Shown: positions 37,101 through 53,883 of the stretch, piece by piece
Position numbering within the stretch: the first letter of the stretch is position 1
Layout of the letters: each line of letters begins with the position of its first letter
Assembly (NCBI GenBank): GCA_018970725.1
Contig: JAGWVU010000030.1
Location: 1-57,891, forward strand
Reading direction: 5' to 3'
DNA from: Verrucomicrobiota bacterium
GTDB taxonomy: Bacteria > Verrucomicrobiota > Verrucomicrobiia > Verrucomicrobiales > DEV007
Length of the DNA: 57,891 nt
Position numbers and translations under genes: made by a program
The notes under the pieces: generated by a model
Seen by the model: the letters and a program-made list of their open reading frames with translations, nothing else
The model's database searches: none
Told to the model about the DNA's origin: nothing

Positions 37101-38262
37101 TTTCCTCATCGCCCAGGCCGGGCACCTCGCAACCCGAACCCTCGGCACCACACCGGGAAGCGACCCGGCCCCGAAAATCCGGGCGCTTTTCGAGGCCGCT
37201 TTGAACCGGCCGCCGAGCGATGCGGAATTGTCCGGGGCGCGGGAATTGCTCGGCATCGTCTCCGAACGGCACCGGGCGGACGCCTCCCGCCTCGGGGAGA
37301 TTCTCGCCGGGCGGCGTGCCGTCGAGTCGGACCTCGCCGTCCTCGTCGACCCGGTGCGCAAACGGCTCGAGGCGGAGCGGGCCGCCGCCTTTGCCTCCAG
37401 CCAGCAGCGGTCTCCGGGGTCCTCCGCCTCCCTCGACTTGCGCCCGGTCGCGCACTGGGATTTCCGACGGGGGACGGTCGATTCCATTTCCGCGATCCCC
37501 CTCGTCCTCGAAGGGACGGCGCGCGTGGAAAACGGGACCTTGGTGGTCGATGGCAACGGCCACGCCACCAGTGCTCCACTGCCCTTCGACCTCGGGGCCA
37601 AGACCCTTGAGGCGCGCCTTCAACTGGCCACCTTGGACCAGGGCGGCGGCGGGGTGCTCTCCGTGCAAACCATGGACGGTGTCCTCTTCGACAGCCTCGT
37701 ATTCGCGGAACGCCGCGGGAAGGAATGGCTCGCGGGCAGCAACTCGTTCGCCCGGACGCTCGACTTCAACGGCCCGGCGGAAACCGGGGCGGCCGGCACC
37801 GCGGTGCATCTGGTCCTCACCTATGCCGAAGACGGCACGATCCGCTGCTACCGCAACGGGGAACCTTGGGGAGACCCGATCCGCAAGGCCGGACTGCAAC
37901 CCTTTGCCAAAGGCCGCACCGAAGTCCTCTTCGGTCTCCGTCACGGGACGCAAGCCGGAAACGGAAGGGCCCTGCGCGGCCGCATTCTCGAGGGCCGCCT
38001 CTACGACCGCGCCCTCACCGCGGAAGAAGTCCGCTCCCTCTTCACCGGCGGTCCCGCCCCGGTCTCCCGTCAGGATGTCGATGCCGCCCTCGGCGCCTCC
38101 GGCCGCTCGGAGCAGCAACGGCTCGAAGCGTCTCTCCGGTCACTGCAGGCAGAGGCCGAGGCCCTGAAGGGATTCGGGGCCGATCTCGATCACGATGCCC
38201 GCGTCTGGCGCGACCTCGCCCATGCGATTTTCAATCTCAAGGAATTCATCTACCTCAAATAA
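34105..38262 (+). CDS. PSCyt1-PSCyt2-PSD1 protein with C-terminal LamG-like domain
   Basis: The 1385-residue exported protein has a signal sequence at about residues 24-43. PSCyt1 (about 48-140) contains the haem-binding motif CYECH near residue 63. PSCyt2/DUF1549 (about 190-400) contains the second motif CARCH near 382. A linker of about 400 residues is beta-rich. PSD1/DUF1553 spans about 810-1045 ([20 protein letters not shown]). A concanavalin/LamG-like domain (about 1112-1315) and a short helical end follow. This cytochrome-plus-PSD1 design is characteristic of Planctomycetota and Verrucomicrobiota, usually paired with a DUF1501 gene as here (16 bp downstream). It is presumed to be a periplasmic or surface redox protein in polymer degradation; no reaction is established. 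It is coupled to the upstream IclR gene by a 4-bp overlap. Confidence 0.92.
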
Positions 38263-38278
38263 ACCGGGCGCCCGAACC

Positions 38279-39703
38279 ATGACGAATCTCCCGCTCCCCC
38301 GTTCCCGCCGCGATCTTCTGCGCAACGCCTCGACCGGCTTCGGTCTCATGGCCCTGTCAGCCCTGCTCGGTTCCCCGGCCGCCGGAGCCACCCCGGGTGC
38401 CCGGACCAATCTCCGCCCCCGGGCCAGGCACGTGATCTTCTGTTACATGTCGGGAGGCGTCTCCCACCTCGATACCTTCGATCCCAAGCCAAAACTCCGC
38501 GAGCTTCACGGCCGCCCGATGCCGGTCAAGGTCGAGCGGACCCAGTTCAACAACAACGGCAACATCTTCGGCAGCCCCTTCGACTTCGCTCCCGGCGGCA
38601 AGAGTGGACTCCCCGTTTCCGACCTCTTCCCCCATCTGCGCCAACATTGCGCGGATGACCTCGCCGTGGTCCGTTCCATGACCAGCCCGGTCAACGAACA
38701 CGCCCAGGGAAATCTGTTTTTCCATACCGGATTCCCCTTCATCGGCCATCCTTCCGCCGGGGCCTGGACCTGCTACGGACTCGGCAGCGAGAACGCCAAC
38801 CTCCCCGGCTACGTCGTGCTCAAGAGCGGCGAGGCCGGCACACCCCACGGCGGCGTCGGCCAATGGAGCAGCGGATTCCTCCCCGCCCAGCATCAGGCAT
38901 CGGTCTTCAAGATCGATGCTTCCGATCCCGTGCCCAACATTCGCCCGAGGGAACAAGACGTCACCCAGCGGGCCCGCCTCGACTTCATCCGTGCCATCGA
39001 CCGCCAGTTCGCCGCGGCCACCCGGGCGGACGACGCCATCGAAGCCGCCATCCGCAACCATGAGACCGCCTACCGGATGCAATCCGCCGTGCCCGAACTT
39101 TGCGATCTCCGCGGGGAAACGGAAGCCACCAAACGCCTCTACGGATTCGAGGCCCGCAACCCCATGACCCGGGCCTACGCACGCCAGGCCCTCCTCGCCC
39201 GCCGCCTCGTGGAGCGGGGCGTGCGCTTCATCGAACTCACCTGCCTGCCCCAAAAACCGGGCGGGGATCAGGCCCCCAATCCCTGGGACCAACATGGCGG
39301 CCTCGAATCCGGGCACCGCAACATGTCGGAACAGGTCGATCAACCCATCGCCGGTCTCCTCGTTGATCTCAAACAACGCGGGCTCCTCAACGAAACCCTC
39401 GTCATCTGGGCCGGCGAGTTCGGCCGGACCCCCTTCTCCCAGGGGAGCAACGGACGCGACCACAACCCCTTCGCCTTCAGCATCTGGCTCGCCGGTGGCG
39501 GCACCAAGGGAGGGACGATCTACGGAGAGACCGATGAATTCGGTTATCATGTGGTCGACAGAAAAACGAGCGTCTTCGATCTCTGGGCCACCACCCTCCA
39601 CCTCCTCGGGGTCGATCACGAAAAACTCACCTACCGCTACGCCGGCCGGGACGTCCGCCTGACCGATGTCCACGGTGAGGTCTGGCAGGACTTGATCGCC
39701 TGA
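38279..39703 (+). CDS. DUF1501 protein, Tat-exported
   Basis: The 474-residue protein has a twin-arginine signal ([20 protein letters not shown]). The body follows the DUF1501 sulfatase-like pattern: [20 protein letters not shown] near the start, then [10 protein letters not shown] and [17 protein letters not shown], and a C-terminal [13 protein letters not shown]. Its fold is related to alkaline phosphatase/sulfatase enzymes, but the reaction is unknown. DUF1501 genes nearly always stand beside PSD1 genes, and this one is the partner of the preceding gene. The ATG at 38279 was chosen because it begins the Tat signal; the open frame extends upstream into the PSD1 gene. Confidence 0.93.
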
Positions 39704-39829
39704 GATTCTCCCGGGTTCTTCCGCGAGGTCGCATTTGTCGAGGATCGCGTCGCGAGGCGCGGGACAATCGGGTGATCCGCCCTTTTTCTTTGTCCATATT
39801 CCCCTTCTTCCAGGCACTGGCTTTTGACC

Positions 39830-42800
39830 ATGACTCCAAAAGCCTCCCTTCTCCCCGCCCTCCTCCTCTGCTTCCCCGGCAGCCCGGCCCTTCAGGCCCA
39901 GGAACCGCCGGCGGAATGGTTCAAGAAGTTGGACCGAAACGGCGACGGCCAAATCTCCCGTGAGGAGATGCCGAAACTTTTCGACCAACTCGATACCGAT
40001 CAGGACGGCATCGGCACCGTCGCCGAGGTCACCGCCCATTTTGCCAAGACACCGCGCCCGGCCCCGGCTCCTCCCATTGAACCCCCAGCGCGCGGCGCCC
40101 TCCCGGACACGGTGGAAAAACGGGCCGTCACGGTCTGGAGCGATGGCACCCGCATGGCGGGCGATCTCTATCTGCCGAAGAACCGCAAGGAAGGCGAGAA
40201 GCTGCCTGCCATCGTCTTTTGCGCGGGAACAGGCGGCACAAAAGGCGGCACGGGCGGGCGATTGGGGCCGATCTTTGCGGAGAAGGGCTATGTCGCCCTC
40301 GCTTTTGACTATCGCGGCTGGGGTGAGAGCGAGAGCCAGCTCATGGCCGTCGATTCGCAGCCGAAGCCGGACGAGAAGGGCGAGCTGACGATCAAGGTGA
40401 AGGCGCTGCGCTGGCAGATGAACTACACTGACCAGACCGAGGACATCCGCGCCGCGATCAGCTTCCTCGCGGGCGAGCCGTCGGTGGATCCGGAGCGCAT
40501 CGGCCTCATGGGCAGCAGCTACGGCGGCGGCCTCGTGACTTACATGGCGGGCACGGATCCCCGGGTGAAATGCGTCGTCGCGCAGGTGCCGGGGCTTGGG
40601 GGTGCGAATCGCGACCGCGCCCTCGCCGCCGCCTTCCGCCTGCACACTCAACAGGCCCGCGGCGAGGTGGAACCCGTGCCGCTGGAAACCGGCAAGATGA
40701 CCGGCAAGATGGCAAAATACGCCAACATGCGGACCAACCCGGCGAAGAGCATCGGCTTCAGCGCCCTCGAAGCCGCCGCGAAAATTGAAGTGCCAGCGCT
40801 CTTCGTCGTCGCGGAGAACGAGGAACTGAGCAACAACGAGGTCGTCGCCGAGGCGCAAAAGCAGATCGCCGCCCGGGGCGTGCCGTCAAAGTATCACGTC
40901 GTCAAAGGGATCACGCACTACGGCATCTACCGCGAAGGATTCGAGGAAGCCACCGCGCTCGAGATCGCATGGTTTGCGGAGCATTTGAAGGGGGCGGGGA
41001 AACCCGCAGCTTCGAATCTCGAAGAAAGCTTCAAGGCTCTCGATGCGGACAAGGGTGGAACACTCAGTGCGGAAGAGTTTGCGGCCATGAAACAAAGCAC
41101 GCCCTATTTTCGCGAGCATCCTGACCATTTGGAGCCCGCGTTCAAAAAGCTCGATGCGGATGCCGACGGTGCTTTGACGCTGGAAGAGTATCGGAACATC
41201 GCCAAGCCGCGCCAGAGCACGGGCGGCCAAGGCAAGGCCAAGAGCCCTCCAGCCGAGACAGACGCTCCGAAGGCATCTGCGGAGACTGCGCCGGAAAAGA
41301 GCGTGAAGTTTGCCGAGGCTGATCTCGCCTTCTTCGAGAAGAACATCCGCCCGGTGCTCATCAAGAGCTGCTACGAGTGCCACAGTGCCGAGGCTGACAA
41401 GCTCAAAGCCGGGCTGGCGCTGGATGCGCGCGATGCGTTGCTGAAGGGAGGCGATAGCGGGCCGGCCGTGATGCTGGGAAAGCCGGAGGAGAGCCTGCTC
41501 ATCAAGTCGCTGCGGCATGATGATCCCGATTTGAAGATGCCGCCGGACAAGCACGGCGGAAAGCTGAGCGAGGCGGTGATCGCGAACTTTACCGAATGGG
41601 TGAAACGCGGTGTGCCGATGCCGGAAGGTCAGGCGGTGGCGGTGGAACAGAAGATGGAGGCGCGGATGGATCATTGGGCGTTCCAGCCGGTGAAGGACTC
41701 GGCCGCTCCAGCGGTGAAGAATACGAACTGGCCGCGCACGGAGGTGGATCGCTTCGTTTTGGCGGAGTTGGAGAAAAAGGACCTCGCGCCCGTGGCGGAT
41801 GCCGAGCCTGCGGCGCTGCTTCGTCGCGTGCATCTCGACCTGACCGGCCTGCCGCCAACGGCGGAGCAGGTGACGGCTTTTCTCGCGGCACCGAGCGAGT
41901 CGCGGATCGAAGGTGTGATCGATGAACTCATGAAGTCGCCGCAGTTCGGCGAGCGGTGGGGGCGTCACTGGCTGGATGTGGCACGCTATGCGGAGAGCAG
42001 CGGCAAGGAGACGGACTTCGCCTATCCACAAGCATGGCGGTATCGCGATTATGTCATCAAGGCATTCAATCAAGACATGCCGTTTGATCAGTTCATCCGC
42101 GAGCAGATCGCGGGCGATTTGCTTGAGTATCGCGATGACAAGGAGCGGGCGGAGTTGCTCATCGCGACCGGTTTCCTCGCCATCGGGCCGAAGTCGCACA
42201 TCGAAAAGAATCCGCTCCAATTTGAGATGGATGTGGTGGACGAGCAGATCGACACCGTCAGCCAGGCTTTCCTCGGTCTAACGGCGGCCTGCGCCCGCTG
42301 CCATGATCACAAATATGATCCCGTCTCGCAGCGCGACTACTACGCGCTGGCAGGCATTTTCCGCAGCACGGACACGAAGTTTGGCACGGTCGAGATGGTG
42401 CAGAACAACAACGCCGGAACGCTCGTGCCGCTGTCCGCAGGTGCGGGCCAGCCCAATGCCCTGAAAACCCTCACAACCCCCGAGCGGAGCAAGCTGGAAA
42501 AAGCCATCGCTCAGAAATCCGCCCGCCTCGCCGAACTTACGAAGCAACGCATGTTTGCCTCGTCCGAGTTTGTGCAGACGCGGCTGCGGCTCGCCACGGA
42601 CAAGGCTCACCTCGCCGCCTATGAAGCCGACGGCACGCCGAAGCAGTTCGTGACATGCGTTCTGGAGCGCGAGAAGCCGCGCGACTCCGCGCTGCTCATC
42701 CGGGGTGAGGTGCAAAAGCCCGGCGACATGGTGCCGCGTGGCCTGCCGATGCTCGCGAAGACCCGTAGCACGATCTCCAGCGGCAGCGGACGCAAGGAAC

Positions 42801-43630
42801 TCGCCTCATGGATCTCCTCGCCGGACAATCCGCTCACCGCCCGCGTGATCGTGAACCGCGTGTGGCTGCATCTTTTCGGCCAAGGCATCGTCACCACGCC
42901 CGACAACTTCGGCTTGTCAGGACAAGCCCCCACGCATCCCGCGCTGCTCGATCATCTCGCCACTCGCTTTGTCCTAGAAGACTGGTCGGTGAAAAAACTC
43001 ATCCGCGAGCTGATGACGAGCCATGTCTATGCGCTAAGCACCGCGCATGACGCGAAGAACTTCGAGGCCGATCCAGACAACACGCTGCTCTGGCGCATGT
43101 CGCCGCGCCGACTCGATGCCGAGTCCATCCGCGATGCCATGCTGCTCACTGCCGGCAAGCTCGACCTCCGCCCGCCCGCTGGCAGCGCCGTGGGAGCCTT
43201 CGGCGAAGGCTATGCCGTTGGCGCAAACACACGCATGATCGATCAGGTTTCGCCGCATCGCTCCGTGTATCTGCCGGTGGTGCGCAATTTGCCCCTGGAG
43301 TCGCTCACGCTCTTCGATATGCCACCCGGAAGCATCGTCACCGGCCAGCGCCCGCAGACCACCGTGCCCGCGCAGTCGCTCTACCTCATGAATAGCCCCT
43401 ACGTGCTCAAAGCCGCCGAGTTCGCCGCCCAACGCCTCCTCACCGACCGCCCGACGAGCGAGCCGCACCGCGTGAAGCTCGCCTACGAGCGCATCTTCAA
43501 CCGCCCGCCGACTGATGCCGAAATCGAAGCCGCGCTCAAGTTTGTGAAAACGAAACCCGATGCCGCGAAAGGCTGGGCCGCCCTCTGCCAGAGCCTCTGG
43601 GCGAGCCATGAGTTTTTGGCTCGCAGCTAA
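39830..43630 (+). CDS. Fusion protein: EF-hands, alpha/beta hydrolase, PSCyt1-PSCyt2-PSD1
   Basis: The 1266-residue exported protein has an unusual order of domains. After a signal peptide (to about residue 24) comes an EF-hand pair (about 33-70; DRNGDGQISREE, DTDQDGIGTV). An alpha/beta hydrolase follows (about 95-385), with nucleophile elbow GSSYGG near 228 and KGITHYG for the histidine. A second EF-hand pair (about 395-455; DADKGGTLSAEE, DADADGALTLEE) and a low-complexity linker lead to PSCyt1 with CYECH near 514, PSCyt2 with CARCH near 821, and PSD1 (about 960-1225). Both haem motifs are intact. The hydrolase and PSD1 parts are normally separate genes. The gene opens the ten-gene exported operon, although its usual DUF1501 partner is five genes downstream. 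The ATG at 39830 begins the signal peptide. Confidence 0.88.
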   Translation: MTPKASLLPALLLCFPGSPALQAQEPPAEWFKKLDRNGDGQISREEMPKLFDQLDTDQDGIGTVAEVTAHFAKTPRPAPAPPIEPPARGALPDTVEKRAVTVWSDGTRMAGDLYLPKNRKEGEKLPAIVFCAGTGGTKGGTGGRLGPIFAEKGYVALAFDYRGWGESESQLMAVDSQPKPDEKGELTIKVKALRWQMNYTDQTEDIRAAISFLAGEPSVDPERIGLMGSSYGGGLVTYMAGTDPRVKCVVAQVPGLGGANRDRALAAAFRLHTQQARGEVEPVPLETGKMTGKMAKYANMRTNPAKSIGFSALEAAAKIEVPALFVVAENEELSNNEVVAEAQKQIAARGVPSKYHVVKGITHYGIYREGFEEATALEIAWFAEHLKGAGKPAASNLEESFKALDADKGGTLSAEEFAAMKQSTPYFREHPDHLEPAFKKLDADADGALTLEEYRNIAKPRQSTGGQGKAKSPPAETDAPKASAETAPEKSVKFAEADLAFFEKNIRPVLIKSCYECHSAEADKLKAGLALDARDALLKGGDSGPAVMLGKPEESLLIKSLRHDDPDLKMPPDKHGGKLSEAVIANFTEWVKRGVPMPEGQAVAVEQKMEARMDHWAFQPVKDSAAPAVKNTNWPRTEVDRFVLAELEKKDLAPVADAEPAALLRRVHLDLTGLPPTAEQVTAFLAAPSESRIEGVIDELMKSPQFGERWGRHWLDVARYAESSGKETDFAYPQAWRYRDYVIKAFNQDMPFDQFIREQIAGDLLEYRDDKERAELLIATGFLAIGPKSHIEKNPLQFEMDVVDEQIDTVSQAFLGLTAACARCHDHKYDPVSQRDYYALAGIFRSTDTKFGTVEMVQNNNAGTLVPLSAGAGQPNALKTLTTPERSKLEKAIAQKSARLAELTKQRMFASSEFVQTRLRLATDKAHLAAYEADGTPKQFVTCVLEREKPRDSALLIRGEVQKPGDMVPRGLPMLAKTRSTISSGSGRKELASWISSPDNPLTARVIVNRVWLHLFGQGIVTTPDNFGLSGQAPTHPALLDHLATRFVLEDWSVKKLIRELMTSHVYALSTAHDAKNFEADPDNTLLWRMSPRRLDAESIRDAMLLTAGKLDLRPPAGSAVGAFGEGYAVGANTRMIDQVSPHRSVYLPVVRNLPLESLTLFDMPPGSIVTGQRPQTTVPAQSLYLMNSPYVLKAAEFAAQRLLTDRPTSEPHRVKLAYERIFNRPPTDAEIEAALKFVKTKPDAAKGWAALCQSLWASHEFLARS

Positions 43631-43714: not shown

Positions 43715-45064
43715 ATGAACAACGTAAAAAAAACTCTCTCACTCCTCACCGCCCTGCTGCTCGTGCCGCTGGCTGCGCTGCACGCGGATGAGCCGCCGCA
43801 CATCCTCATTCGTGAGGCATTGCAGTTTGAGAACATCGGTGACAGCGGGCGCGTGCCGGGGACGATCCGGCAGCTTTATCAATACCTGCCGGAGGCGACG
43901 GTCACGCTCTGGCCGTGGCAGCTTCATGAGCGCGAGCGGGAGATGCTGACGCATGCTTTTCCAAAGCTGCACATCGCCAGCGGCGAGGTGGATGATGCGG
44001 GCCATGCCTCCACACCGGAACTCGCCGCCGCGTGGAAGGACGCGGACATTTTCATCACTCCGGCACGTCATGCGAAGACCTTTCAGGCCTGGGCGAAGAC
44101 GGGGCGGCCGTATGGCTTCTTCGGCTCGCACTTCGATCCCATCAGCGGACGCACCTCGCTGCGGGATGGCGGCACGTTGGAGAAATTGCGCGAGGCGATC
44201 ACGAAACTGCCAGCGGACCATTTCGACGGTCACTACAAGTCGCGCGAGGTCTATGACGGCGCGTCCTTCATCTTCGCACGCGACACCTATTCGCTCCTGT
44301 ATTTGCAGGGGCAAAAGCTGCGCACGCCCATCGTCGAGTTCGGCCTCGATGGCACGTTTGGCATCGCCGTGCGCGATGAAGCCCGCGCCACACGCTGGCT
44401 GAAACGCATCGGCGCGGAGCAGGGGAAATTCATCTGCGTGCTGCCTCGCCTGCGCTATACGCCTTACTACCGCGTGAAGGATCTGCCTCGCGACGAGGGC
44501 GACTACGAGATCGATGCCATCAACGCCAAACACGCCGCTGCCGACCACGCACCGCTGCGCGACCTCATCACGCTCTACGCCCGCGAAACCGGCCACAAGG
44601 TGCTGCTCTGCCCCGAGATGACTTACGAGATCACCGTGGCAAAGGAGCACCTCTTTGACCCACTGCCCGCCGACGTGAAACCGCACGTCATCTGGCGCGA
44701 CACCTTCTGGCTCGCCGACGAAGCCGCGTCCGTCTATGCCCGCGCCACCGCGATCGTTAGCGCCGAGTGCCACTCGCCCATCATTGCACTCTCCCAAGGC
44801 ACGCCCGCCTTCTACGTCCGCAATCCGCCCGACACGGTGAAAGCGCAGATGTTCCGCGACCTCGGCCTCACGGATTGGGTCTTCGAGAGCCATCAAACCA
44901 CCGGCCAGCAGCTCTGGAAAAAACTCAAGCCCATCCACGAAAACCGCGCTGCCGGTCGGGCGAAAGTGCAGGCTGCGATGCAGCGAGCCACCGATATCCA
45001 GAAGCGCATGGTCGAGGTCGTCGCCGATGCGGTGGCGAAACATCAGGCGAAGGCCTCGCGATGA
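43715..45064 (+). CDS. Polysaccharide pyruvyl transferase family protein with signal peptide
   Basis: The 449-residue protein belongs to PF04230. The family core appears as HILIREALQFENIGDSG at the N-terminal end, a central QGKFICVLPRLRYTP, and the diagnostic end ATAIVSAECHSPIIALSQGT followed by PAFYV and FRDLGLTDWVFE. Known members move pyruvyl groups from phosphoenolpyruvate to sugars in the cytoplasm. Here the first 24 residues (KKTLSLLTALLLVPLAALHA) are a good signal peptide, so the protein appears exported, where phosphoenolpyruvate is not available. It may act on a pyruvylated or sialylated glycan or merely bind one. It overlaps the next gene (ATGA) and lies 84 bp after the fusion gene. 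Confidence 0.82.
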   Translation: MNNVKKTLSLLTALLLVPLAALHADEPPHILIREALQFENIGDSGRVPGTIRQLYQYLPEATVTLWPWQLHEREREMLTHAFPKLHIASGEVDDAGHASTPELAAAWKDADIFITPARHAKTFQAWAKTGRPYGFFGSHFDPISGRTSLRDGGTLEKLREAITKLPADHFDGHYKSREVYDGASFIFARDTYSLLYLQGQKLRTPIVEFGLDGTFGIAVRDEARATRWLKRIGAEQGKFICVLPRLRYTPYYRVKDLPRDEGDYEIDAINAKHAAADHAPLRDLITLYARETGHKVLLCPEMTYEITVAKEHLFDPLPADVKPHVIWRDTFWLADEAASVYARATAIVSAECHSPIIALSQGTPAFYVRNPPDTVKAQMFRDLGLTDWVFESHQTTGQQLWKKLKPIHENRAAGRAKVQAAMQRATDIQKRMVEVVADAVAKHQAKASR

Positions 45065-46161
45065 AACACACCCTGCTTCTCACCCTTTTGGATTCAATGA
45101 CTCAACCCATGAAGCGACTTTCCCTCGTCACCACTCTTCTGGCTGCTTCTCTCCATGCTGCTGACATACCCGCCATCCAGATCACCGACCGCACGGTCGT
45201 CTTCACGCACACGAGCACGGACCCGAAGGATCCGGCGAACACCTCAGGCTACAATCTCGGGCCGAGCATCGCGGTGCTGCCGGATGGGCGGTTGATGGCG
45301 GCTTGGTTTTCGTCGCCATCGGAGGGCGCGGAGTCGCAGCGCATCGTGCAGGCGTTTTCAACAGATCAAGGCCGCACCTGGGGCGAGGCTACGGTCTTGC
45401 AGGACTTCGTGGGCCGGGCGGATTTTGATCCGGTGCTGTTCGTGGCCGGGAACGAGACCTTTCTCTTCTTCTCCGCCTTCAATCCGCAGATCGACATTTA
45501 CTTCCGCCGCAGCAGCGACTCCGCGAAGACATGGACCGAGCCGGTGAAGCTGAACCAGCCGAACCAGACCACTCGGTCCAACGGCATCCGCCTCTCCTCG
45601 GGCGAACTCCTCGTCCCGCTGCACCTGCGCGGCACGAAGGCTGGCGGCGTGTTGAAATCGAGCGATGGCGGCAAGACCTGGACGCGATTCGGCGCGGTGG
45701 CGAATCCCGAAGGACAAGGTGGCGAGCCGACGATCGCGGAGACAAAATCCGGCGTGGTCCACATGATTTTGCGCACCAAGGACGGCCAGCTCTGGCGCTC
45801 CATCAGCCGCGACAAAGGCGAAACCTGGAGCGCGACTGAGAAGACCGGACTCACGGCCACATCGAGCGCCAGTCACCTGCTTTGCACCCGAGATGGCATC
45901 CTCGTCCTCACCTCCAATCCCGGCCCTGTTCCACTGCGCTTCCCTTTGCTACTCCGCACCTCACACGATGAAGGAAAGACCTGGAGCGAGCCCACGCTGC
46001 TCGCCGACCGCCCTGCAAAAGTCGGTGGCTGGTCCACGTGCTACCCCAGTTTGACAGAGCTTCCCGACGGCACGCTCGTCGCCCTCTGGGCACAGATCAA
46101 AAGTTCGACCGGTGAGCTGTATGGCGACATTCACTCGGCACGGATCACACTGAAAGACTGA
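45061..46161 (+). CDS. Exported sialidase-like (BNR repeat) protein
   Basis: The 366-residue protein is built on a six-bladed sialidase propeller. Five Asp-box repeats are visible: STDQGRTW, SSDSAKTW, SSDGGKTW, SRDKGETW and SHDEGKTW. The usual sialidase RIP motif is not evident, so true sialidase activity is unproven. The ATG at 45061 overlaps the upstream stop; a later ATG at 45109 gives a textbook signal peptide (MKRLSLVTTLLAASLHA) and may be the real start. It is 10 bp before the beta-helix gene. The likely role is hydrolysis or binding of an acidic sugar in the extracellular glycan programme. Confidence 0.85.
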   Translation: MKHTLLLTLLDSMTQPMKRLSLVTTLLAASLHAADIPAIQITDRTVVFTHTSTDPKDPANTSGYNLGPSIAVLPDGRLMAAWFSSPSEGAESQRIVQAFSTDQGRTWGEATVLQDFVGRADFDPVLFVAGNETFLFFSAFNPQIDIYFRRSSDSAKTWTEPVKLNQPNQTTRSNGIRLSSGELLVPLHLRGTKAGGVLKSSDGGKTWTRFGAVANPEGQGGEPTIAETKSGVVHMILRTKDGQLWRSISRDKGETWSATEKTGLTATSSASHLLCTRDGILVLTSNPGPVPLRFPLLLRTSHDEGKTWSEPTLLADRPAKVGGWSTCYPSLTELPDGTLVALWAQIKSSTGELYGDIHSARITLKD

Positions 46162-46171
46162 ACTCCATTTT

Positions 46172-49100
46172 ATGTGCCGCTCACTTGCTTTGCTTTTCGT
46201 CACAGCGCTCTGCATCTCCTGTGCCTCAGCCGCCGAACTCACCGTCGGCCCCGGCGGCTTCAAAACGATCGGCGAGGGTGTGGCGGCGCTCAAAGCGGGG
46301 GATACGCTCACGATCATGCCAGGGGAGTATCGGGAGACAGTCTCCGCCACGTTGGTGGGCACGGCGGAGGCGCCGATCACGATTCGGGCTTGGCGGGCGG
46401 GGAGTGTGTTGATGCGGGGGGATGTGGAGTTGGGGGACTTCAAGGCGGTGCCGGGGCTGCGGGATGTGTTTGTGACGGAGATGAAGACAAAGGCGGAGTC
46501 GGTGTTTGAGCGCAGCACGTTTCGCACGCTGGAGCCGAAGATGAGCGCGGCGGAGGTGGAGACGACGTTGATGAGTTATCATCAGGATGAGAAAAGCGGG
46601 CGGCTGTATGTGCACACGTCGGACTCGCTGCCGCCGGTGTGTCATGCGATGGGCGCGTCGGTCACGAATGCGAACGGGCTGCTGCTCACGGGCTCGAAGC
46701 ATGTGATCATCGACGGGCTGTCGTTCACCGGCTTCAGCCATCGCGACTACGATCCGCAGCATGGCTCACGCACGCGCTGGGGGCTGATGTTGAAGGATTG
46801 CGAGAGCTGCCTCGTGCAAAACTGCACGGCGTATCTGAACAGCGGCGGCCTGCACCTGCTCGGCAAAGGCCAGGGCTGCGTGGTGGAGGATTGCACGGCG
46901 TTTGGCAACTGGTCGCGGCATGTGGACATCGGCAACAACATCGTCGGCTGGGGCGTGGCGGGCACGACCTTTCAGCGCAACCGCGTGGAGGGTCACATGC
47001 CCGATGCGGCGACGAGTCGCAACGACATCACGTTTTACAGCGGCGGCGATGGTTGCGCGATGATCGACAACCTCGCGATCAACGCGAGCATCATGATCAA
47101 AGGCGATCTCAAGGACGCGGTGCAGCGCGGCAATGTGTGCATCGGCCGCAAGTTCTACCGTCCGCCGGGCGCGGAGAACATCGAACTGCCCGCCGGAGCC
47201 ACGCCAGCGGACGCGGCGCGTTTTGCGGATGTGCTGAATCATGATTATCGCACGGAAAAGGTCTTCTTTGTGTCGCCCGGCGGCGAAGATGCGAATCCGG
47301 GCACGAAGGCGAAGCCGTGGAAAACGCTCGCGCAGGCCGCGAAGGCCAGCGGCACGGTGTATCTCATGGCGGGCGAGTATGAGGAGACGCTCGTGGCGCG
47401 TGCGAAGGCGGATGTGCGCCGATATGGGCATGATCGCGTCGTGGTGAAGGACGTGCTCATCAAAGACGCACCCGGCGTGCGGCTGCATGGGCTGCACATT
47501 CGCGAGAAAGCGGCCTTCTCAGGCTGCGAGGGCCTGCGCATCGAGTTTTGCACGCTGGGCGGGCTTTGGGTCCGCGAGTCGCCGAAGGTGCATGTGGCGC
47601 ACAATTGGCTGCGAGGTCCGTTGCGCGTCGAAAACTCGCCGGAAGGCAGTTTCGTGTCGAACCTCATCGCCGAGCGCCAGATGGATGCCGCGTCGCAAAA
47701 CGGCCTGTGGGTGCATTCGAACGTCACCACAGCTCCCGAAGGCGATGTGTTGCCCGATGACTCGCCGCTCATCGGTCGCGGACTGCATGGTTCGACCATC
47801 GGACCGTTTGTGCGGCTCAGTCGCACGCGACCGCTGCCGATCAGCCAGGTCGCCGTGCATGATGTGACGCCGACGACGGCCACGCTGGAGTGGAGCACGC
47901 CCACGCAGGCCGCGGAGACGACGCTCGAATGGGGCGACCGCAAAATCGAAACGCCACGCGGCAGCCAGCACAGCGTGAGCTTGAGCGGATTGCAGCCGGG
48001 CAAGGCCTACGAGTTCCGCGTCACCTCGCGTCGCAAAGATGAGCAGCGGCTCTTTGCTACGCATCAGCCGCCTGCGGACAAAACGCAGGCCGTTTTCGAA
48101 ACGCAAACCGTCACCACCACCACCGCCGCATCACCAGCACGCACGCTGCATGTGCCCGGCGATTTCCCCACGATCTCCGCCGCCGCCGATGCCGCGCGTG
48201 CGGGCGACACGGTGCTCATTCACGCCGGTGTGTATGAGGAAACCGTGCGCATCCGCAGCAGCGGCGATGCCGGTGCGCCGATCACCTTTGCCGCCGCGCC
48301 CGGCGAGATCGTGTGGATGGATGGCAGCGACCGCTTTCGCGCGACCGCCTTCATCCTCCCGCACAAGCATCACATCATCCTCGACGGCCTGCGCTTCCGC
48401 CATTTCCGCTTCGCGCCGGAGCTAGGGCCGATCATTCGCATCACCGGAGGCTCGCATCATGTCATCCGCCGCTGCTTTCACGATGGTCGCGAGCTGGAGG
48501 GCTACGTCGGCACGCTCATCGCCGCGGAAAAAGTCACGAACCTGCTCATCGAAAACAACGTCTTCATCGGCGGCATGAACGAAGCCATCAGCCTCAATGC
48601 CTGCCCGGAGGCCACCGTGCGGCACTGCGTCTTTTACAACAACTTCCTCCGCGCCCTCACCGCGCACATGGACACGCCGGATGTGCTGCTGCACTTCCAT
48701 CACAACCTCGTCTGCGACAGCATCCCGTCGAAGGTGAAGAACGCCCTGCTGCGCATCTGGCACGCCGACGCGCTGCGCTCCGACCACAACGTCTTCTACA
48801 CCCGCATCCCCGGCGCGGAGCGTCACCTCGTCGAGACCGCCTTCATCCACGGCCAGCAAGTCGGCCACGCCGATCCCGCCATGTATCGCGGCGAAAATCT
48901 CCTGCTCACCGACCTGCAAACGAAGTTCCGCCAGGACCAAACCAGCCGCACCGGCAATCCCACGATCCCCGCCGCCCCGCAACTCGTCCCCCGCAACGAC
49001 GGCGAAAACCCCGAGTGGCGAAAAATCGAAACCGCCTGGCGCGAAACCGAACTCTACCAAACCGGCAGCACCCTCACCCCGCTCCATTTTGAAGACTTCA

Positions 49101-49177
49101 TCCCCGCTGCGGACAACCCGCTGAGCAAGGCGAGCGATGGGAAGGCGGTGGGTTTGGATTCGGGAGCATTCAGATGA
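46172..49177 (+). CDS. Exported double beta-helix protein with fibronectin type III domain
   Basis: The 1001-residue protein has a signal peptide (about 1-20, ending ASAAE). Two right-handed parallel beta-helix regions flank a linker. The first (about 20-550) starts TVGPGGFKTIGEGVAALKAG and includes the restart motif FVSPGGEDANPGTKAKPWKT near 365, typical of DUF1565/pectate-lyase-like proteins. A fibronectin type III domain lies at about 553-625 (TTATLEWSTPTQAAET, LQPGKAYEFRV). The second helix (about 668-990) begins TLHVPGDFPTISAAADAARA. Such folds occur in polysaccharide lyases and glycoside hydrolases. No catalytic triad can be assigned by eye. It probably acts on the same glycan as the neighbouring sialidase-like proteins. 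Confidence 0.85.
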   Translation: MCRSLALLFVTALCISCASAAELTVGPGGFKTIGEGVAALKAGDTLTIMPGEYRETVSATLVGTAEAPITIRAWRAGSVLMRGDVELGDFKAVPGLRDVFVTEMKTKAESVFERSTFRTLEPKMSAAEVETTLMSYHQDEKSGRLYVHTSDSLPPVCHAMGASVTNANGLLLTGSKHVIIDGLSFTGFSHRDYDPQHGSRTRWGLMLKDCESCLVQNCTAYLNSGGLHLLGKGQGCVVEDCTAFGNWSRHVDIGNNIVGWGVAGTTFQRNRVEGHMPDAATSRNDITFYSGGDGCAMIDNLAINASIMIKGDLKDAVQRGNVCIGRKFYRPPGAENIELPAGATPADAARFADVLNHDYRTEKVFFVSPGGEDANPGTKAKPWKTLAQAAKASGTVYLMAGEYEETLVARAKADVRRYGHDRVVVKDVLIKDAPGVRLHGLHIREKAAFSGCEGLRIEFCTLGGLWVRESPKVHVAHNWLRGPLRVENSPEGSFVSNLIAERQMDAASQNGLWVHSNVTTAPEGDVLPDDSPLIGRGLHGSTIGPFVRLSRTRPLPISQVAVHDVTPTTATLEWSTPTQAAETTLEWGDRKIETPRGSQHSVSLSGLQPGKAYEFRVTSRRKDEQRLFATHQPPADKTQAVFETQTVTTTTAASPARTLHVPGDFPTISAAADAARAGDTVLIHAGVYEETVRIRSSGDAGAPITFAAAPGEIVWMDGSDRFRATAFILPHKHHIILDGLRFRHFRFAPELGPIIRITGGSHHVIRRCFHDGRELEGYVGTLIAAEKVTNLLIENNVFIGGMNEAISLNACPEATVRHCVFYNNFLRALTAHMDTPDVLLHFHHNLVCDSIPSKVKNALLRIWHADALRSDHNVFYTRIPGAERHLVETAFIHGQQVGHADPAMYRGENLLLTDLQTKFRQDQTSRTGNPTIPAAPQLVPRNDGENPEWRKIETAWRETELYQTGSTLTPLHFEDFIPAADNPLSKASDGKAVGLDSGAFR

Positions 49178-49235: not shown

Positions 49236-51152
49236 ATGCCGAGATTCATTTTTGCCCTCATCAGTGCCCTGCTATCCAGCAATGCACTCGCCGACCTCAC
49301 GCTCATCCGTGATGGGCAGCCGCAGGCTGTGATCATCGTGCCGGAGGGGCTTTACAAGCAGGTGCAGAAGCCGGCGGAGCAGTTGACGGGCGATGGGTCG
49401 GTGGTGCCGTTGGCGGCGGTGGAGCTGGCGGATTATCTGGGGAGGATTTGCGGAACGAGGCCGCAGATTGCCACGGAGACGCAAAAGGGACTGCCGGATG
49501 GGCCGCGCATCTTTGTGGGGCACTGCAAAGCGAATGCGGACCTCGCACCGAAACCGGAGGAGATCGTGGTTTTGACCCGAAACGGCGATTTGCACCTCTG
49601 CGGCGGCGATTCAGGGCCGGGAGGCATGATTTGCAAAGGCACGCTCTTTGCCGTGTATGACTTCATCGAGCGGGAACTTGGCGTGCGATGGCTTTTTCCC
49701 GGCGAGTATGGCGAAGTGGTGCCGAAGCGGGCCACGATCACGATTGCGGATTTGAACCGCCGCGAGCAGCCACGCATCGCCAAACGCAAACTGCGGAATG
49801 TGGCGGTGTCGCGTGAGGAGACATTCGCGCCCGTTTTGGAGAAGTGGGGCGTGTCGCTGGAGGCATGGAAAACGGCGCAAGGCGAGGTCGCGACCGGCCC
49901 GTGGCATCGGCGGATGCGGCTTGGGCAGCGCATCGAGATCAATGGCGGTCACGCGTTCGCTGGCTGGTGGGAAAAACATGGCAAGGAGCATCCCGAGTGG
50001 TTCGCGCTGCAACCCGATGGCACCCGCACGCAGACGCCGGAGCGGGAGCGACTGTGCAAATCGAACTCCGCGTTGTGGGATGAGATCGCACGGGTGAAGA
50101 TCGCGGAGTTCAAAGCCGATCCCTCGCTGCTCACGGCCTCCATCTCGCCCAATGACGGCGGCAAAAACAAGTTCTGCATGTGCGAGGCCTGTCGTGCGCT
50201 CGATCCCGCCGAAGCGCCGAAGATCTTCGGTGACTCGCAGCTCATTGATCCCGCCACGAAGGTGCCTTTTGCCGAATACCCATCGCTCAGTGATCGCACG
50301 TTCACCTTCTTCAACGAGATCGCGACCCGCGTAGGCCGCGAGATGCCGGATCGCGACCTCGTGGCCTATGCCTATTCGGTTTATCGCAGCGTGCCGGTGA
50401 AGGTGAAGCAGCTTCAACCGAACCTCATCGTCGGCTATGTCGGCATGAATCTGAATGAAATCGAAGCCTGGTCCAGGATCGCGCCGAAGCTCTTCATTCG
50501 CCCAAACGACCTCGGTCCGGCCATCGACCTCGGCATGCCGCGCAACAACGCTGCATGGTTTGCGCAGGCCGTGAAGTTCGGTGTCGAACACAAGGCCATC
50601 GGCTTCGACTTCGACAACGGCCACGGCAACTGGAGCGCTCACGGCCTCGACTACTACGTGCTGTGCAAAGCGATGTGGAACCCTGATCTCGATGTCGCCG
50701 CCACGATCGCCGACTACTGCCGCGCCGCGTATGGTCCGGCGGCTGAGTTGATGCAGCAGTATCACGGGACCCTCGCCAAAGTGAGCGACCAAGTCCGCGC
50801 CGACTCCGAACTCGGCCCACGCAAGCCCCACGCCATCCGTTTGCGCCGCTACTACAGCGAGGAATCTCTGCAAGCCCTCGAAGCGCTCATCAAGAGCGCC
50901 CAAGCCGTGCAAGGCGACGACCCATGCGTAAAAGCCCGCATTCAAATGGCCGCCGAGAGTGTGAAGTATGCCCAACTCGTCACCGCTCTACTCGAAGTCG
51001 CCCACGACAAGAAATCCCCCATCGTCGCCGAACGCCTCAGCGCCGTGGAAGCGTTCTTGAAAACCAAAGTCCTCTCCCCCGAACTCGCCCCACTGCACAG
51101 CCACCGCTACCTGCGCATGGCGTTGTCTTATGCGGAGCGGGAGGTGGAATGA
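49236..51152 (+). CDS. Exported DUF4838 protein (glycosidase-like)
   Basis: The 638-residue protein has a signal peptide (MPRFIFALISALLSSNALA). The N-terminal part (about 35-160) resembles the non-catalytic alpha/beta domain of GH20/GH67 enzymes: AAVELADYLGRICG, then GTLFAVYDFIERELGVRWLFPGEYG. The central part matches DUF4838, with SISPNDGGKNKFCMCEAC, FFNEIATRVGREMP and GYVGMNLNEIEAW. A helical C terminus follows. DUF4838 proteins are thought to be TIM-barrel glycoside hydrolases, but their substrates are not established. The ATG at 49236 was preferred because it begins the signal sequence; the ATG at 49185, eight bases after the upstream stop, would add 17 polar residues. It is 16 bp before the next gene. 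Confidence 0.84.
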   Translation: MPRFIFALISALLSSNALADLTLIRDGQPQAVIIVPEGLYKQVQKPAEQLTGDGSVVPLAAVELADYLGRICGTRPQIATETQKGLPDGPRIFVGHCKANADLAPKPEEIVVLTRNGDLHLCGGDSGPGGMICKGTLFAVYDFIERELGVRWLFPGEYGEVVPKRATITIADLNRREQPRIAKRKLRNVAVSREETFAPVLEKWGVSLEAWKTAQGEVATGPWHRRMRLGQRIEINGGHAFAGWWEKHGKEHPEWFALQPDGTRTQTPERERLCKSNSALWDEIARVKIAEFKADPSLLTASISPNDGGKNKFCMCEACRALDPAEAPKIFGDSQLIDPATKVPFAEYPSLSDRTFTFFNEIATRVGREMPDRDLVAYAYSVYRSVPVKVKQLQPNLIVGYVGMNLNEIEAWSRIAPKLFIRPNDLGPAIDLGMPRNNAAWFAQAVKFGVEHKAIGFDFDNGHGNWSAHGLDYYVLCKAMWNPDLDVAATIADYCRAAYGPAAELMQQYHGTLAKVSDQVRADSELGPRKPHAIRLRRYYSEESLQALEALIKSAQAVQGDDPCVKARIQMAAESVKYAQLVTALLEVAHDKKSPIVAERLSAVEAFLKTKVLSPELAPLHSHRYLRMALSYAEREVE

Positions 51153-51168: not shown

Positions 51169-52452
51169 ATGAAACCAACCCTCACACTCCTCACCGCCCT
51201 CCTGCTCGCGCCGTTGGCCGCTTTCGCCCAAGCCAAGCCCGAGGTGGCTAATGCCACCAAGGCCGCCAAACGCGCCTGGGAATCCGCGCCTGCTGAAAAG
51301 AAAGCGCTGTGGCAGCAACAGCGCGAGGCTTTGACTCACATCGACCTCTCCGAGGACACGGAGAGGCAAATCATCATCGCACGCGGTTCACCGAAGCCGG
51401 GTGAGTATCACGCGCACCCGACCACGGCGATGCTGGCGGACAACAAGACGATGTTCTGCGTCTGGAACATCGGACACGGCGGTCACGCGGGGCCGATGGC
51501 TCGCAGCGATGATGCCGGATTAACATGGACGCGCATGGATGACGCGCTGCCGCCGAACTACGTCAACTTCAAGAACTGCCCCAGCATCTATCGACTGACG
51601 GATCTTGAAGGCAAAGAGCGACTGTGGGTCTTCGCCGCTCGGACGTTGACCGACAAGGAGAACCCAACGCCCATCGCAGGCCGTCACGAAGGCTACATGC
51701 CGCGCATCGTGAGCGAGGACGATGGCAAGACTTGGCGCGAGCTGCCTCCCATCGGCGGCCCGATTTCAAAAGACGATCCGTTTCGTAACATCATGACCTT
51801 CTCCAGCATCGTGCGTCTGAAGGATAGCTCATCGCTCGGCCTTTTCCATCGCGGCAGCGGCATCGGCGAGGAAGGCACGCTGCAAGTGCTGCAATCCATC
51901 ACCCGCGACGGCGGCTTCACCTGGTCCGCGCCCACGCTGGCCTGCGACGGCACCAAGCTCGACGGCAAGCACCCATGCGAGCCCTATGTCTTCCGCTCGC
52001 CTGATGGGGGCGAACTCTGCTGCCTCATGCGCGAGAACAAACGCAGCGGCACCAGCCTCGTCATGTTCAGCCGCGACGAGGGCAAAACATGGTCGCAGGC
52101 CGTGGACGCGCCGTGGGGCCTCACCGGAGATCGCCATCACGGCATCCTCTTGCCCGATGGCCGACTGGTGATCGTCTTTCGCAACGCCTCGCCCAACCCC
52201 AAGGACAAAGGTTTCATTGCCTGGGTCGGCACCTACGACGACATCAAGCAAGGCAAGCCCGGCCAGTATCGCGTGAGCCTGCTCAAGACCTTCAAAGACG
52301 GCTTCTACCCCGGCCTGCATTTGCTCCCCGACGGCACCATCGTCGCCACGACGTATGCGAACTACCGACAGGAGGACGTGGGATGTTCTATCGTCAGCGT
52401 CCGCCTCAAGGTGAGCGAGGTGGATGCGATGGCGACCCGGTTAGCCAATTGA
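51169..52452 (+). CDS. Exported sialidase family protein
   Basis: The 427-residue protein has a signal peptide (MKPTLTLLTALLLAPLAAFAQ). Residues 25-60 are a helical, lysine-rich stretch, and a sialidase-type propeller follows. Asp-box repeats are SDDAGLTW, SEDDGKTW, TRDGGFTW and SRDEGKTW. ADNKTMFCVWNIGHGGHAGP and HHGILLPDGRLVIVFRN are typical of exo-sialidase-like proteins in Planctomycetota and Verrucomicrobiota. It is the second sialidase-like protein in the operon and is not a close copy of the first. Substrate unknown. A 54-bp gap with the 16-base leader motif leads to the DUF1501 gene. Confidence 0.87.
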   Translation: MKPTLTLLTALLLAPLAAFAQAKPEVANATKAAKRAWESAPAEKKALWQQQREALTHIDLSEDTERQIIIARGSPKPGEYHAHPTTAMLADNKTMFCVWNIGHGGHAGPMARSDDAGLTWTRMDDALPPNYVNFKNCPSIYRLTDLEGKERLWVFAARTLTDKENPTPIAGRHEGYMPRIVSEDDGKTWRELPPIGGPISKDDPFRNIMTFSSIVRLKDSSSLGLFHRGSGIGEEGTLQVLQSITRDGGFTWSAPTLACDGTKLDGKHPCEPYVFRSPDGGELCCLMRENKRSGTSLVMFSRDEGKTWSQAVDAPWGLTGDRHHGILLPDGRLVIVFRNASPNPKDKGFIAWVGTYDDIKQGKPGQYRVSLLKTFKDGFYPGLHLLPDGTIVATTYANYRQEDVGCSIVSVRLKVSEVDAMATRLAN

Positions 52453-52506: not shown

Positions 52507-53883
52507 ATGAACTCACTCCTCACCCGCCGCGAATGGCTGCAACGCACGAGCGCGGGCTTTGGGTGGCTCGCCTTGAGCGCGCTCGCAACCCAGCGTGCTC
52601 TCGCTGAAACTGCCGCGCCTCTGGCCCCGAAGCAGCCGCATTTCCCCGCCAACGCCAAGCGCGTGCTTTTCCTCTGCATGGACGGCGGGCCATCGCATGT
52701 GGACAGCTTTGATTACAAACCCGAGCTGGCCAAATACGCGGGCAAAGCCATCGGCAAAGGCAAGGTGCCCACGGGTAAGCTCATGGCCCCGGTGTGGGAG
52801 TTCAAGCAGCGCGGCCAGAGCGGCCTCTGGATCAGCGAGCTGTTCCCGCAAATCGCCTCGCACGCGGACAAGCTCTGCCTCATCCGCAGCATGAAGACCG
52901 ATGTGCCGAACCATCCGCCCGCCTTCCTGCAAATGCACTGCGGCATCCCGACTGCGCCGCGTCCCAGCATGGGTGCCTGGGTCACCTACGGCCTCGGCAG
53001 CATGAATGAAAACCTGCCCGGCTTTGTCACCCTCAGCCCGAATCCCGGCAACGGCGGCTCTGCCAACTACGGCAGTTCGTTTCTGCCCGCCATCTATCAA
53101 GGCACGCGCATCGGCAACGGGCGCCAGCCCATCGCCCAGGCCAAAATCAGCAATCTCGCGCATCCGCAGCTCGCACGGCCTGAGCAGCGTGCCCAGCTCG
53201 ACTTCGTGCAGCAGCTCAACCGCGCCGCGCAGCAGCGCCAGCCGGAGAACGCCGCCATCGAGGGCCTCATCGAGTCGCACGAACTCGCCTTCCGCATGCA
53301 GGACGCCCTGCCCAGCGTGCTCGACGTCGAAAGTGAGTCCGACACCGTGAAGAAGCTCTACGGCATCGGCAGCACCACCACCGACGACTTCGGCCGCCAG
53401 TGCCTCATGGCGCGGCGCATGTTGGAGGCCGGCGTGCGCTTCGTGGAGGTCAATCACAGCGGCTGGGACCAGCATCGCAACCTCACCGCGGACCACGGCA
53501 AACACGCCGCCGCCGTCGATGGCCCCATCGCCGGATTGCTGGCCGATCTCGAAGGCCGCGGCCTGCTCAAAGACACGCTCGTCATCTTCGCCGGCGAGTT
53601 TGGCCGCACGCCCTACGCGCAGATCGACGACGGACGCGACCACAACCACACCGGCTACACCACCTGGTTCGCCGGGGCCGGCGTGAAGCCCGGATTCAGT
53701 TTCGGCGAGACCGACGAGTTCGGCTACGAGAGCGTCATCGACCCCGTCCACATTCACGACTGGCACGCCACCATCCTCCACTTGCTCGGATTGGAGCACA
53801 CGAAGCTCACCTACCGCTACGCCGGGCGCGACATGCGGCTCACTGAGGTGAAGGGGAACGTGGTGAAGGGGATTTTGGCCTGA
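52507..53883 (+). CDS. DUF1501 protein, Tat-exported (second copy)
   Basis: The 458-residue protein starts MNSLLTRREWLQRTSAGFG, a twin-arginine signal (TRREWL). KRVLFLCMDGGPSHVDSFDY opens the sulfatase-like fold, and GEFGRTPYAQ, GRDHNHTGYTTWFAGAG and YRYAGRDMRLTEV are the family end motifs. It parallels the DUF1501 protein at 38279-39703. Its likely partner is the PSD1 fusion at 39830, from which it is separated by five genes. Function is unestablished; the usual PSD1 association suggests a shared role at the envelope. The next gene starts 15 bp downstream. Confidence 0.93.
   Translation: MNSLLTRREWLQRTSAGFGWLALSALATQRALAETAAPLAPKQPHFPANAKRVLFLCMDGGPSHVDSFDYKPELAKYAGKAIGKGKVPTGKLMAPVWEFKQRGQSGLWISELFPQIASHADKLCLIRSMKTDVPNHPPAFLQMHCGIPTAPRPSMGAWVTYGLGSMNENLPGFVTLSPNPGNGGSANYGSSFLPAIYQGTRIGNGRQPIAQAKISNLAHPQLARPEQRAQLDFVQQLNRAAQQRQPENAAIEGLIESHELAFRMQDALPSVLDVESESDTVKKLYGIGSTTTDDFGRQCLMARRMLEAGVRFVEVNHSGWDQHRNLTADHGKHAAAVDGPIAGLLADLEGRGLLKDTLVIFAGEFGRTPYAQIDDGRDHNHTGYTTWFAGAGVKPGFSFGETDEFGYESVIDPVHIHDWHATILHLLGLEHTKLTYRYAGRDMRLTEVKGNVVKGILA

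Follow-up and report, generated by a model that had tools for sequence, protein, structure and literature searches.

A clade of largely exported PF04230 proteins with an acid at a PEP-contact position: possible carbohydrate-active enzymes on a pyruvyltransferase scaffold

The window, by which we mean the whole analysed stretch of 57,891 nucleotides, encodes a PF04230-like protein with an N-terminal leader and, downstream of it, several putative carbohydrate-related proteins. The features are as follows.

43715..45064, + strand: PF04230-like gene, the subject of this study; ATG start, 449 residues (ORF list and Pfam scan)
43715..43786, + strand: predicted signal peptide, Sec-like, residues 1-24; cleavage after ALHA, placed by eye
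43832..43843, + strand: N40-I-G-D43, the N-terminal PF04230 motif (alignment)
44279..44281, + strand: Arg189, aligned with the PEP-binding R148 of CsaB and R217 of Pvg1p (alignment; roles as given in PMC10435577 and PMC4872226)
44447..44455, + strand: Arg245-Leu-Arg247, possible loop 1 arginines, tentatively mapped to CsaB R207
44615..44617, + strand: Glu301, a clade-specific acid (92/92) in the loop after strand 295-298 (DSSP of the model)
44765..44773, + strand: Glu351-Cys-His353, E-x-H in place of R-x-H (R306 and H308 of CsaB; alignment)
44840..44842, + strand: Lys376, near the place of CsaB K328; 92/92, not cleanly aligned with a lysine of the other PF04230 proteins
45061..46161, + strand: BNR_2 sialidase-like secreted protein (PF13088, 135 bits); signal peptide from ATG 45109
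46172..49177, + strand: beta-helix protein (Chondroitinas_B, 37.7 bits against a cut-off of 24)
49236..51152, + strand: DUF4838 (PF16126) protein, found repeatedly beside the family gene in the window's clade; start chosen within an ORF that opens at 49137
51169..52452, + strand: second BNR_2 protein with a leader-like start (Pfam scan; start by eye)

The window protein passed the Pfam cut-off for PF04230 (32 bits against 25.3, E 1.5e-7) over residues 171-370. A search of its own genome, in which it scored 31.5 bits, revealed three PF04230 matches, namely the window protein, a second exported relative on contig C29 and an ordinary R-x-H member on contig C105. The N-terminal half lies outside the Pfam match, yet it contains the N-x-G motif, of which the Asn and Gly are present in all 92 aligned members of the window's clade and in all 22 other PF04230 proteins. 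The NCBIfam scan of the protein yielded a WcaK match below threshold (13.3 bits) and nothing else, and the PADLOC search no match at E 0.01.

The PDB relatives of the adjacent BNR_2 protein (45061..46161) are sialidases (best E 5e-12, partial matches), and its signal peptide, MKRLSLVTTLLAASLHA, starts at ATG 45109. The overlap of this gene with the PF04230-like gene, as first described, is a 4-base ATGA if translation starts at 45061, but becomes a 44-base gap if it starts at ATG 45109. The beta-helix protein has only weak and short PDB matches, and the DUF4838 protein has no PDB sequence relative at E 0.1; the latter is a second orphan worth testing beside the PF04230-like protein. Among the nine window proteins scanned, neither a glycosyltransferase family over its cut-off nor a transporter family was found. 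At 38195-43630 and 52507-53883 the locus is flanked by DUF1501 genes and by a gene (39824-43630) whose product joins PSCyt1/DUF1549/DUF1553 regions to an esterase-like domain with EF-hands.

Residues 1-24 of the window protein, MNNVKKTLSLLTALLLVPLAALHA, followed by DEPP after the predicted cleavage site (placed by eye), show the features of Sec or Tat export by our own hydropathy and RR counts: a basic n-region, a hydrophobic core and a small residue at -1 before the probable cut. Only two in-frame ATG, GTG or TTG codons lie between residue 1 and N40: a GTG at residue 17, within the hydrophobic core, and, four residues ahead of N40, a TTG at residue 36. As these later starts fall in the hydrophobic core or the folded core, the codon positions leave the protein no sensible leaderless form, and they rule out a start-choice artefact as the origin of the leader. 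The basic n-region of a signal orients a protein with its N-terminus inside and its domain outside. A membrane anchor facing the cytoplasm was considered as well, and the basic n-regions (KK or RR) would place the domain outside. The initial annotation of a PF04230 protein with a signal peptide at 43715-45064 is thus borne out by both the Pfam score and the leader. A 38-residue match of 58% identity to residues 2-39 only, mostly signal peptide, was also observed in a 426-residue open frame (G000:C94:5221-5334).

To place the leader among relatives, 26 of 57 related genomes and 19 named loci were drawn on; they gave 72 distinct full-length proteins, which align over their length. L052, a 139-residue fragment, was omitted. 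The start of each was taken as the ATG nearest to 40 residues upstream of NIGD within a range of 29-66, a rule that favours leaders and gave a start for 71 proteins. A hydrophobic segment (mean hydropathy of at least 1.2) ahead of the domain was found in 70 of these 71, which would take these clade members out of the cytoplasm, against 1 of the 22 other PF04230 proteins, and that single one (L118) has probably been called with too early a start. An RR pair occurs within the first 20 residues of 53 of the 71; the leader is Sec-like in the window's closest clade and has a Tat-like look in most other relatives. Judged by these leaders, export is a family trait. Translation from an internal methionine after the hydrophobic stretch, raised earlier as a possible objection, has no usable codon in the window protein, but an ATG 10-26 residues upstream of NIGD, where a leaderless protein would start, is present in 3 of the 71 relatives (in 33 of 71 when GTG and TTG are counted as well), so that a few are ambiguous.

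The quick tree, of 108 rows (86 clade members and 22 other PF04230 proteins, with eight near copies omitted), separates the clade from the other PF04230 rows with an SH-aLRT of 100; the order among the latter is unsure owing to long branches. The comparison set comprises 22 of 32 proteins, as L114 was read too short and nine were fused or of odd length. Twenty divergent members were labelled by eye, 16 as leaderless and four as carrying a leader. The label changes at least eight times inside the clade, and the starred branches of the quick tree force six changes for the leaderless group. Since leaderless and exported members, as labelled by eye, are interleaved on the tree, the reaction of the clade probably needs no donor confined to the cytoplasm.

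A profile search (E <= 1e-20) revealed clade members in 40 of 288 Verrucomicrobiota genomes, including the window's own; the class that contains Fibrisoma gave members in 2 of 198 genomes, Fibrisoma among them. At most six candidates per genome were scored: G041 and G048 have at least six genes each (in G041 up to 11 match pieces, merged by place into six genes), and G177 and G298 have four and five clade matches, respectively. Ten named loci at 75-86% identity include five titled Verrucomicrobiaceae and one Prosthecobacter, and a tblastn search of a plasmid collection gave one Spirosoma plasmid and one Nonomuraea replicon. By record names, the clade occurs in Verrucomicrobiota, Bacteroidota, Acidobacteriota and one actinomycete. 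The member from Nonomuraea gerenzanensis (L214) looks leaderless and has the motif M-E-C-H-S-P, extending the clade beyond Gram-negative phyla. A Spirosoma sp. KNUC1025 protein (WP_231780417.1) shares 38% identity over 89% of the query, with a Tat-like leader and the motif F-E-C-H-S-P; it is named 'polysaccharide pyruvyl transferase family protein', by annotation only. A literature search on secreted or signal-peptide pyruvyl transferases, in which few subscription papers were covered, yielded no description of this clade, nor do the accessible parts of PMC6801904, PMC10881899, PMC6090015 and PMC8262928 describe one. We regard the clade as a variant within the known PF04230 fold family, and its automatic name as probably misleading.

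The donor site was compared with those of characterized enzymes. CsaB, the ketal-pyruvyltransferase of Paenibacillus alvei, likewise belongs to PF04230. According to PMC10435577, PEP use by CsaB is affected by changes at R148, H308 and K328, and loop 1 contains an essential arginine, R207. Pvg1p, the Golgi pyruvyltransferase of fission yeast (PDB 5ax7), is described in PMC4872226 as having a GT-B type fold and working outside the cytoplasm, with PEP supplied in dependence on the transporters Pet1p and Pet2p. CsaB R306 and Pvg1p R337 were assigned as PEP contacts by docking or modelling (PMC10435577, PMC4872226). Our residue table compares the 92 clade members with the 22 other PF04230 proteins; it contains WcaK, the colanic acid pyruvyltransferase of E. 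coli K-12, and does not contain the CsaB or Pvg1p sequences, whose positions were mapped via WcaK and the motifs. WcaK and the clade share the N-x-G-D start, an R-E/D at the same strand end and an H-S after the x-H. However, WcaK has T-R-L-H-S where the window protein has A-E-C-H-S, and it starts directly at the domain and lies in the colanic acid operon, whereas the window protein has a leader.

Residues of the putative donor pocket are partly retained. Arg189, the first PEP-binding arginine (CsaB R148, Pvg1p R217), is present in 92/92 clade members and 22/22 others, and so is His353 (CsaB H308, Pvg1p H339). A lysine (Lys376) lies near the place of K328, and arginines follow strand 239-243 (R245 in 83/92 and R247 in 67/92 clade members); neither Lys376 nor R245 aligns cleanly with a reference residue. 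In contrast, the second PEP-contact arginine is missing: position 351, the mapped place of CsaB R306 and Pvg1p R337, is Glu in 91 and Asp in one of the 92 clade members, giving E-x-H or D-x-H throughout. Among the 22 other PF04230 proteins this position is Ser in 16, Arg in four, Phe in one and Thr in one, and never an acid. WcaK and three more of these proteins thus carry R-x-H and a larger set carries S-x-H, whereas the window's clade carries E-x-H. Also invariant in the clade (92/92) are Glu301, Trp332, Ala337, Lys376, Met379 and Trp388. As far as the mapping via WcaK and the motifs goes, the clade thus differs from CsaB in the Glu at the place of R306, in export and in the additional invariant Glu301, Trp332 and Trp388. 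As to whether the donor-binding residues remain, the answer is mixed: Arg189 and His353 do, and the second PEP-contact arginine has given way to an acid. E-x-H as an adaptation to export is ruled out, as 16 of the 20 divergent members, leaderless by eye, share the acid. Because the donor site is altered in this way in all 92 members, and given the distribution of the clade, the earlier suggestion that the protein has been turned to another reaction is likely.

In GT-B enzymes, active-site residues sit in loops that follow strands. The AlphaFold2 model of the window protein (pLDDT 93.5, pTM 0.91) predicts such a fold, and among the matches listed its nearest solved structures are GT-B enzymes, with Z 19-24 over 307-343 residues. 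The nearest of those listed by VIA-align, non-hydrolysing UDP-GlcNAc 2-epimerases (for example 3ot5_B, Z 23.9, rmsd 4.7 over 339 aligned residues), share this fold, but differ from the window protein in their 10% identity and nucleotide-sugar substrate. By DSSP of the model, the charged site residues are in loops after strands 185-188, 239-243, 295-298, 346-349 and 365-369, and conserved residues also follow strand 325-327. This placement is as expected for a GT-B cleft, with the geometry suggested by sequence and DSSP. PDB sequence searches with the window protein and with its profile gave no credible relative; Pvg1p was missed by both, and by a WcaK query as well. Pvg1p was also not among the best 50 matches of either fold search, which excludes nothing.

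The neighbourhoods were set against 13-kb regions drawn at random from the same genomes, of which 39 of 42 were used (one overlapped another and two were not fetched). Of 59 family loci 57 were counted, as the gene caller found no family gene in L165 and L172; L039 and L040, which are near copies of each other, both count among the 18 named loci. Two neighbour scans covered 51 of 54 neighbours each, omitting between them L040 and the family copies of L047, and a third covered 61 of 71 selected neighbours together with L167:10623-11774; each listed the first 25 families. Probes of degradation type hit 13/57 family and 6/39 random loci (p 0.44), sulfatase probes 11/57 and 2/39 (p 0.067) and LacI probes 6/57 and 1/39 (p 0.24). 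A degradation-type neighbourhood as a general proof was therefore rejected, being not significant against random regions, and is kept as support from single loci; the neighbourhood signal outside the window's own clade is weak. The 62 neighbours of 18 divergent loci include five LacI and four GntR proteins among the families listed. Pairing with a sialidase gene, which the initial annotation had proposed to mine for, proved occasional rather than a rule: BNR probes hit 2/57 family loci against 1/39 random and 3/18 named loci, and a BNR_2 gene directly adjoins the family gene in the window, L038, L047 and L053.

DUF4838 probes hit 6 of the 18 named loci. The DUF4838 gene lies directly downstream of the family gene in L034, L035, L038, L039 and the near copy L040, and DUF4838 is present in 23/26 family-bearing against 6/31 other genomes (p 1.6e-7, kinship ignored). 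Within the central 4.2 kb, a glycosyltransferase was found in 2/57 clade loci against 8/30 loci of other PF04230 genes, taken with flanks of 1.5 kb (p 0.0025). The probes derive from a single ordinary PF04230 cluster, and most of the 30 loci compared lie in other genomes. Over whole 13-kb loci the counts were 3/57 for the clade, 3/39 for random regions and 0/18 for named loci. Some single loci have a catabolic look, among them L047, L153 and L154, described below, L049 and the Spirosoma locus. L049 has the order TonB receptor, SusD, family gene, GH28, sub-threshold GH28, family gene, that is, SusC/SusD with GH28; the Spirosoma locus has SusC/SusD, Gfo/Idh/MocA, SDR and IclR genes; and in L043, L050 and L051 the family gene stands beside a multicopper oxidase, cytochrome or hydrogenase-like gene.

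Based on these data, we propose that the clade is an exported carbohydrate-active enzyme of GT-B fold that has taken over a pyruvyltransferase scaffold, works without PEP and probably serves degradation, a reading to which we give a probability of roughly 0.45. The fold is predicted and the export signal and residue changes are observed, whereas we infer the loss of PEP use, catalysis, the degradative direction and the anionic substrate. The clade would have given up PEP-dependent pyruvyl transfer, and what it keeps of the former donor pocket, the cationic half (Arg189, His353, Lys376 and, in most members, the loop arginines), would hold a carboxylated or otherwise anionic sugar. The gained acids Glu351 and Glu301 may act as general acid/base, with water or another sugar rather than PEP as the reaction partner. 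The most likely task would be a step in the breakdown of anionic polysaccharide outside the cytoplasmic membrane, which the cytoplasmic cousins might perform after uptake. A PEP transferase beyond the membrane would require exported PEP, as does Pvg1p in the Golgi. The acid replaces the arginine in exported and leaderless members alike. An enzyme at work on both sides of the membrane should require little beyond its glycan and water, and we therefore favour a PEP-independent, probably hydrolytic reaction on an anionic sugar. In support we count the leaders, the single clade, the acid at 351, the mixing of leaders, the few glycosyltransferase neighbours and the single catabolic-looking loci. 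Against it count the Ser at 351 in 16/22 other PF04230 proteins, which makes the arginine not universal, the weak neighbourhood signal outside the window's clade and the equal rarity of glycosyltransferases in random 13-kb regions. In addition, PEP could still be used, since the PEP pocket is largely retained.

The pyruvyl transferase label on at least one record (WP_231780417.1) suggests surface pyruvylation from cytoplasmic PEP, while location and active site speak against it; a PF04230 match alone need not mean pyruvylated surface glycans. If degradative, the clade would add an activity to polysaccharide breakdown by environmental Verrucomicrobiota, with five or six copies in some genomes, and would offer a testable case of a catalytic acid replacing a donor-site arginine. 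Pyruvate ketals would suit the retained cationic pocket as substrates, and so would the unsaturated uronates made by lyases, whose enol-ether carboxylate resembles PEP. A bolder form of the proposal, which we consider unlikely, is a new carbohydrate-degrading class that shares the GT-B scaffold of the pyruvyltransferases and cuts carboxylated ketals or enol ethers, as a pyruvate-ketal hydrolase or as a second route, of GT-B fold, for the removal of unsaturated uronates. In that case a biosynthetic transferase would have become a hydrolase that is exported and whose donor-binding arginine has given way to an acid.

As a depyruvylase, the protein would run the old reaction in reverse with water, Arg189 holding the carboxylate and Glu351 acting as the acid. 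Export, the kept arginine and histidine of the PEP site and the acid where an anion-contacting arginine stood are consistent with this, but a pyruvylated substrate is indicated by none of the loci examined, and this specific activity is improbable. At L047 (5047-9308, an Opitutaceae MAG) three family genes stand in tandem, with a chondroitinase-AC-like PL8 gene on one side and a sialidase gene on the other; a TonB receptor precedes the PL8 gene, an SSF symporter follows the sialidase, and the latter shows YRIP in the alignment. The PL8 protein is nearest to chondroitinase AC (7e-72) and then to xanthan lyase (9e-24), which weakens xanthan as the substrate of this locus and speaks against depyruvylation, since chondroitin is not known to bear pyruvate.

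The same PL8 gene is among the lyase-type neighbours that favour a hydrolase of delta-4,5-unsaturated uronates released by polysaccharide lyases, in which C4 would be protonated by Glu351 or Glu301 and C5 would receive the water. The others, again at single loci, are heparinase II/III-like genes (L153, in the order heparinase II/III-like, family gene, sulfatase, RraA, followed by MR_MLE and another family gene; L154, with SSF) and chondroitinase-B-like beta-helix genes (window, L038). The likeness of the enol-ether carboxylate to PEP would suit this activity, as would the absence of a GH88 match from the window's own genome, G177 and G298 and the presence of PF07940 in 11/26 family-bearing against 3/31 other genomes (p 0.006, kinship ignored). 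However, the lyase adjacency is anecdotal, with lyase probes (self-hits excluded) hitting 0/57 family, 0/18 named and 0/39 random loci, and GH88 itself occurs in 16/26 family-bearing against 9/31 other genomes (p 0.018). Replacement of GH88 by the clade is thus not borne out, and we hold a uronate hydrolase to be a doubtful assignment with a small chance of being right.

A protein that only binds glycans, its pyruvyltransferase scaffold having lost catalysis, would be in line with export and with the several copies in some genomes (at least six in G041 and G048). Against this, five residues in post-strand loops (two acids, His, Arg and Lys), each conserved in 91-92 of the 92 members, look catalytic, which makes loss of catalysis a poor prospect.

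An extracytoplasmic, PEP-dependent pyruvyltransferase decorating surface glycans has a precedent outside the cytoplasm in the yeast Pvg1p (PMC4872226) and would explain the kept Arg189, His353 and probably Lys376. The acid in the place of the PEP-contact arginine of CsaB and Pvg1p in 92/92 members argues against it, together with the few glycosyltransferase neighbours, the absence of a transporter family among the nine window proteins scanned and the leaderless cousins with the same altered site, and we regard it as very improbable. Least probable is a transglycosylase-like transfer of glycosyl groups or, as the initial annotation suggested, of ketals between sugars outside the cell, for which the GT-B fold and the UDP-sugar enzymes among the nearest solved structures (Z up to 23.9) would speak, whereas nucleotide sugars are cytoplasmic and no feature emerged that points to transfer rather than hydrolysis.

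An association of PF04230 with GH88 was also observed outside the clade, in genus g19 of the order's family f2, perhaps Akkermansia. In G049 (L215:7762-10211) four bases are shared by an ordinary PF04230 gene and a GH88-like gene, the pair lying within a glycosyltransferase/Wzz cluster, and in G043, G052 and G055 PF04230 and GH88 matches lie about 0.7 kb apart.
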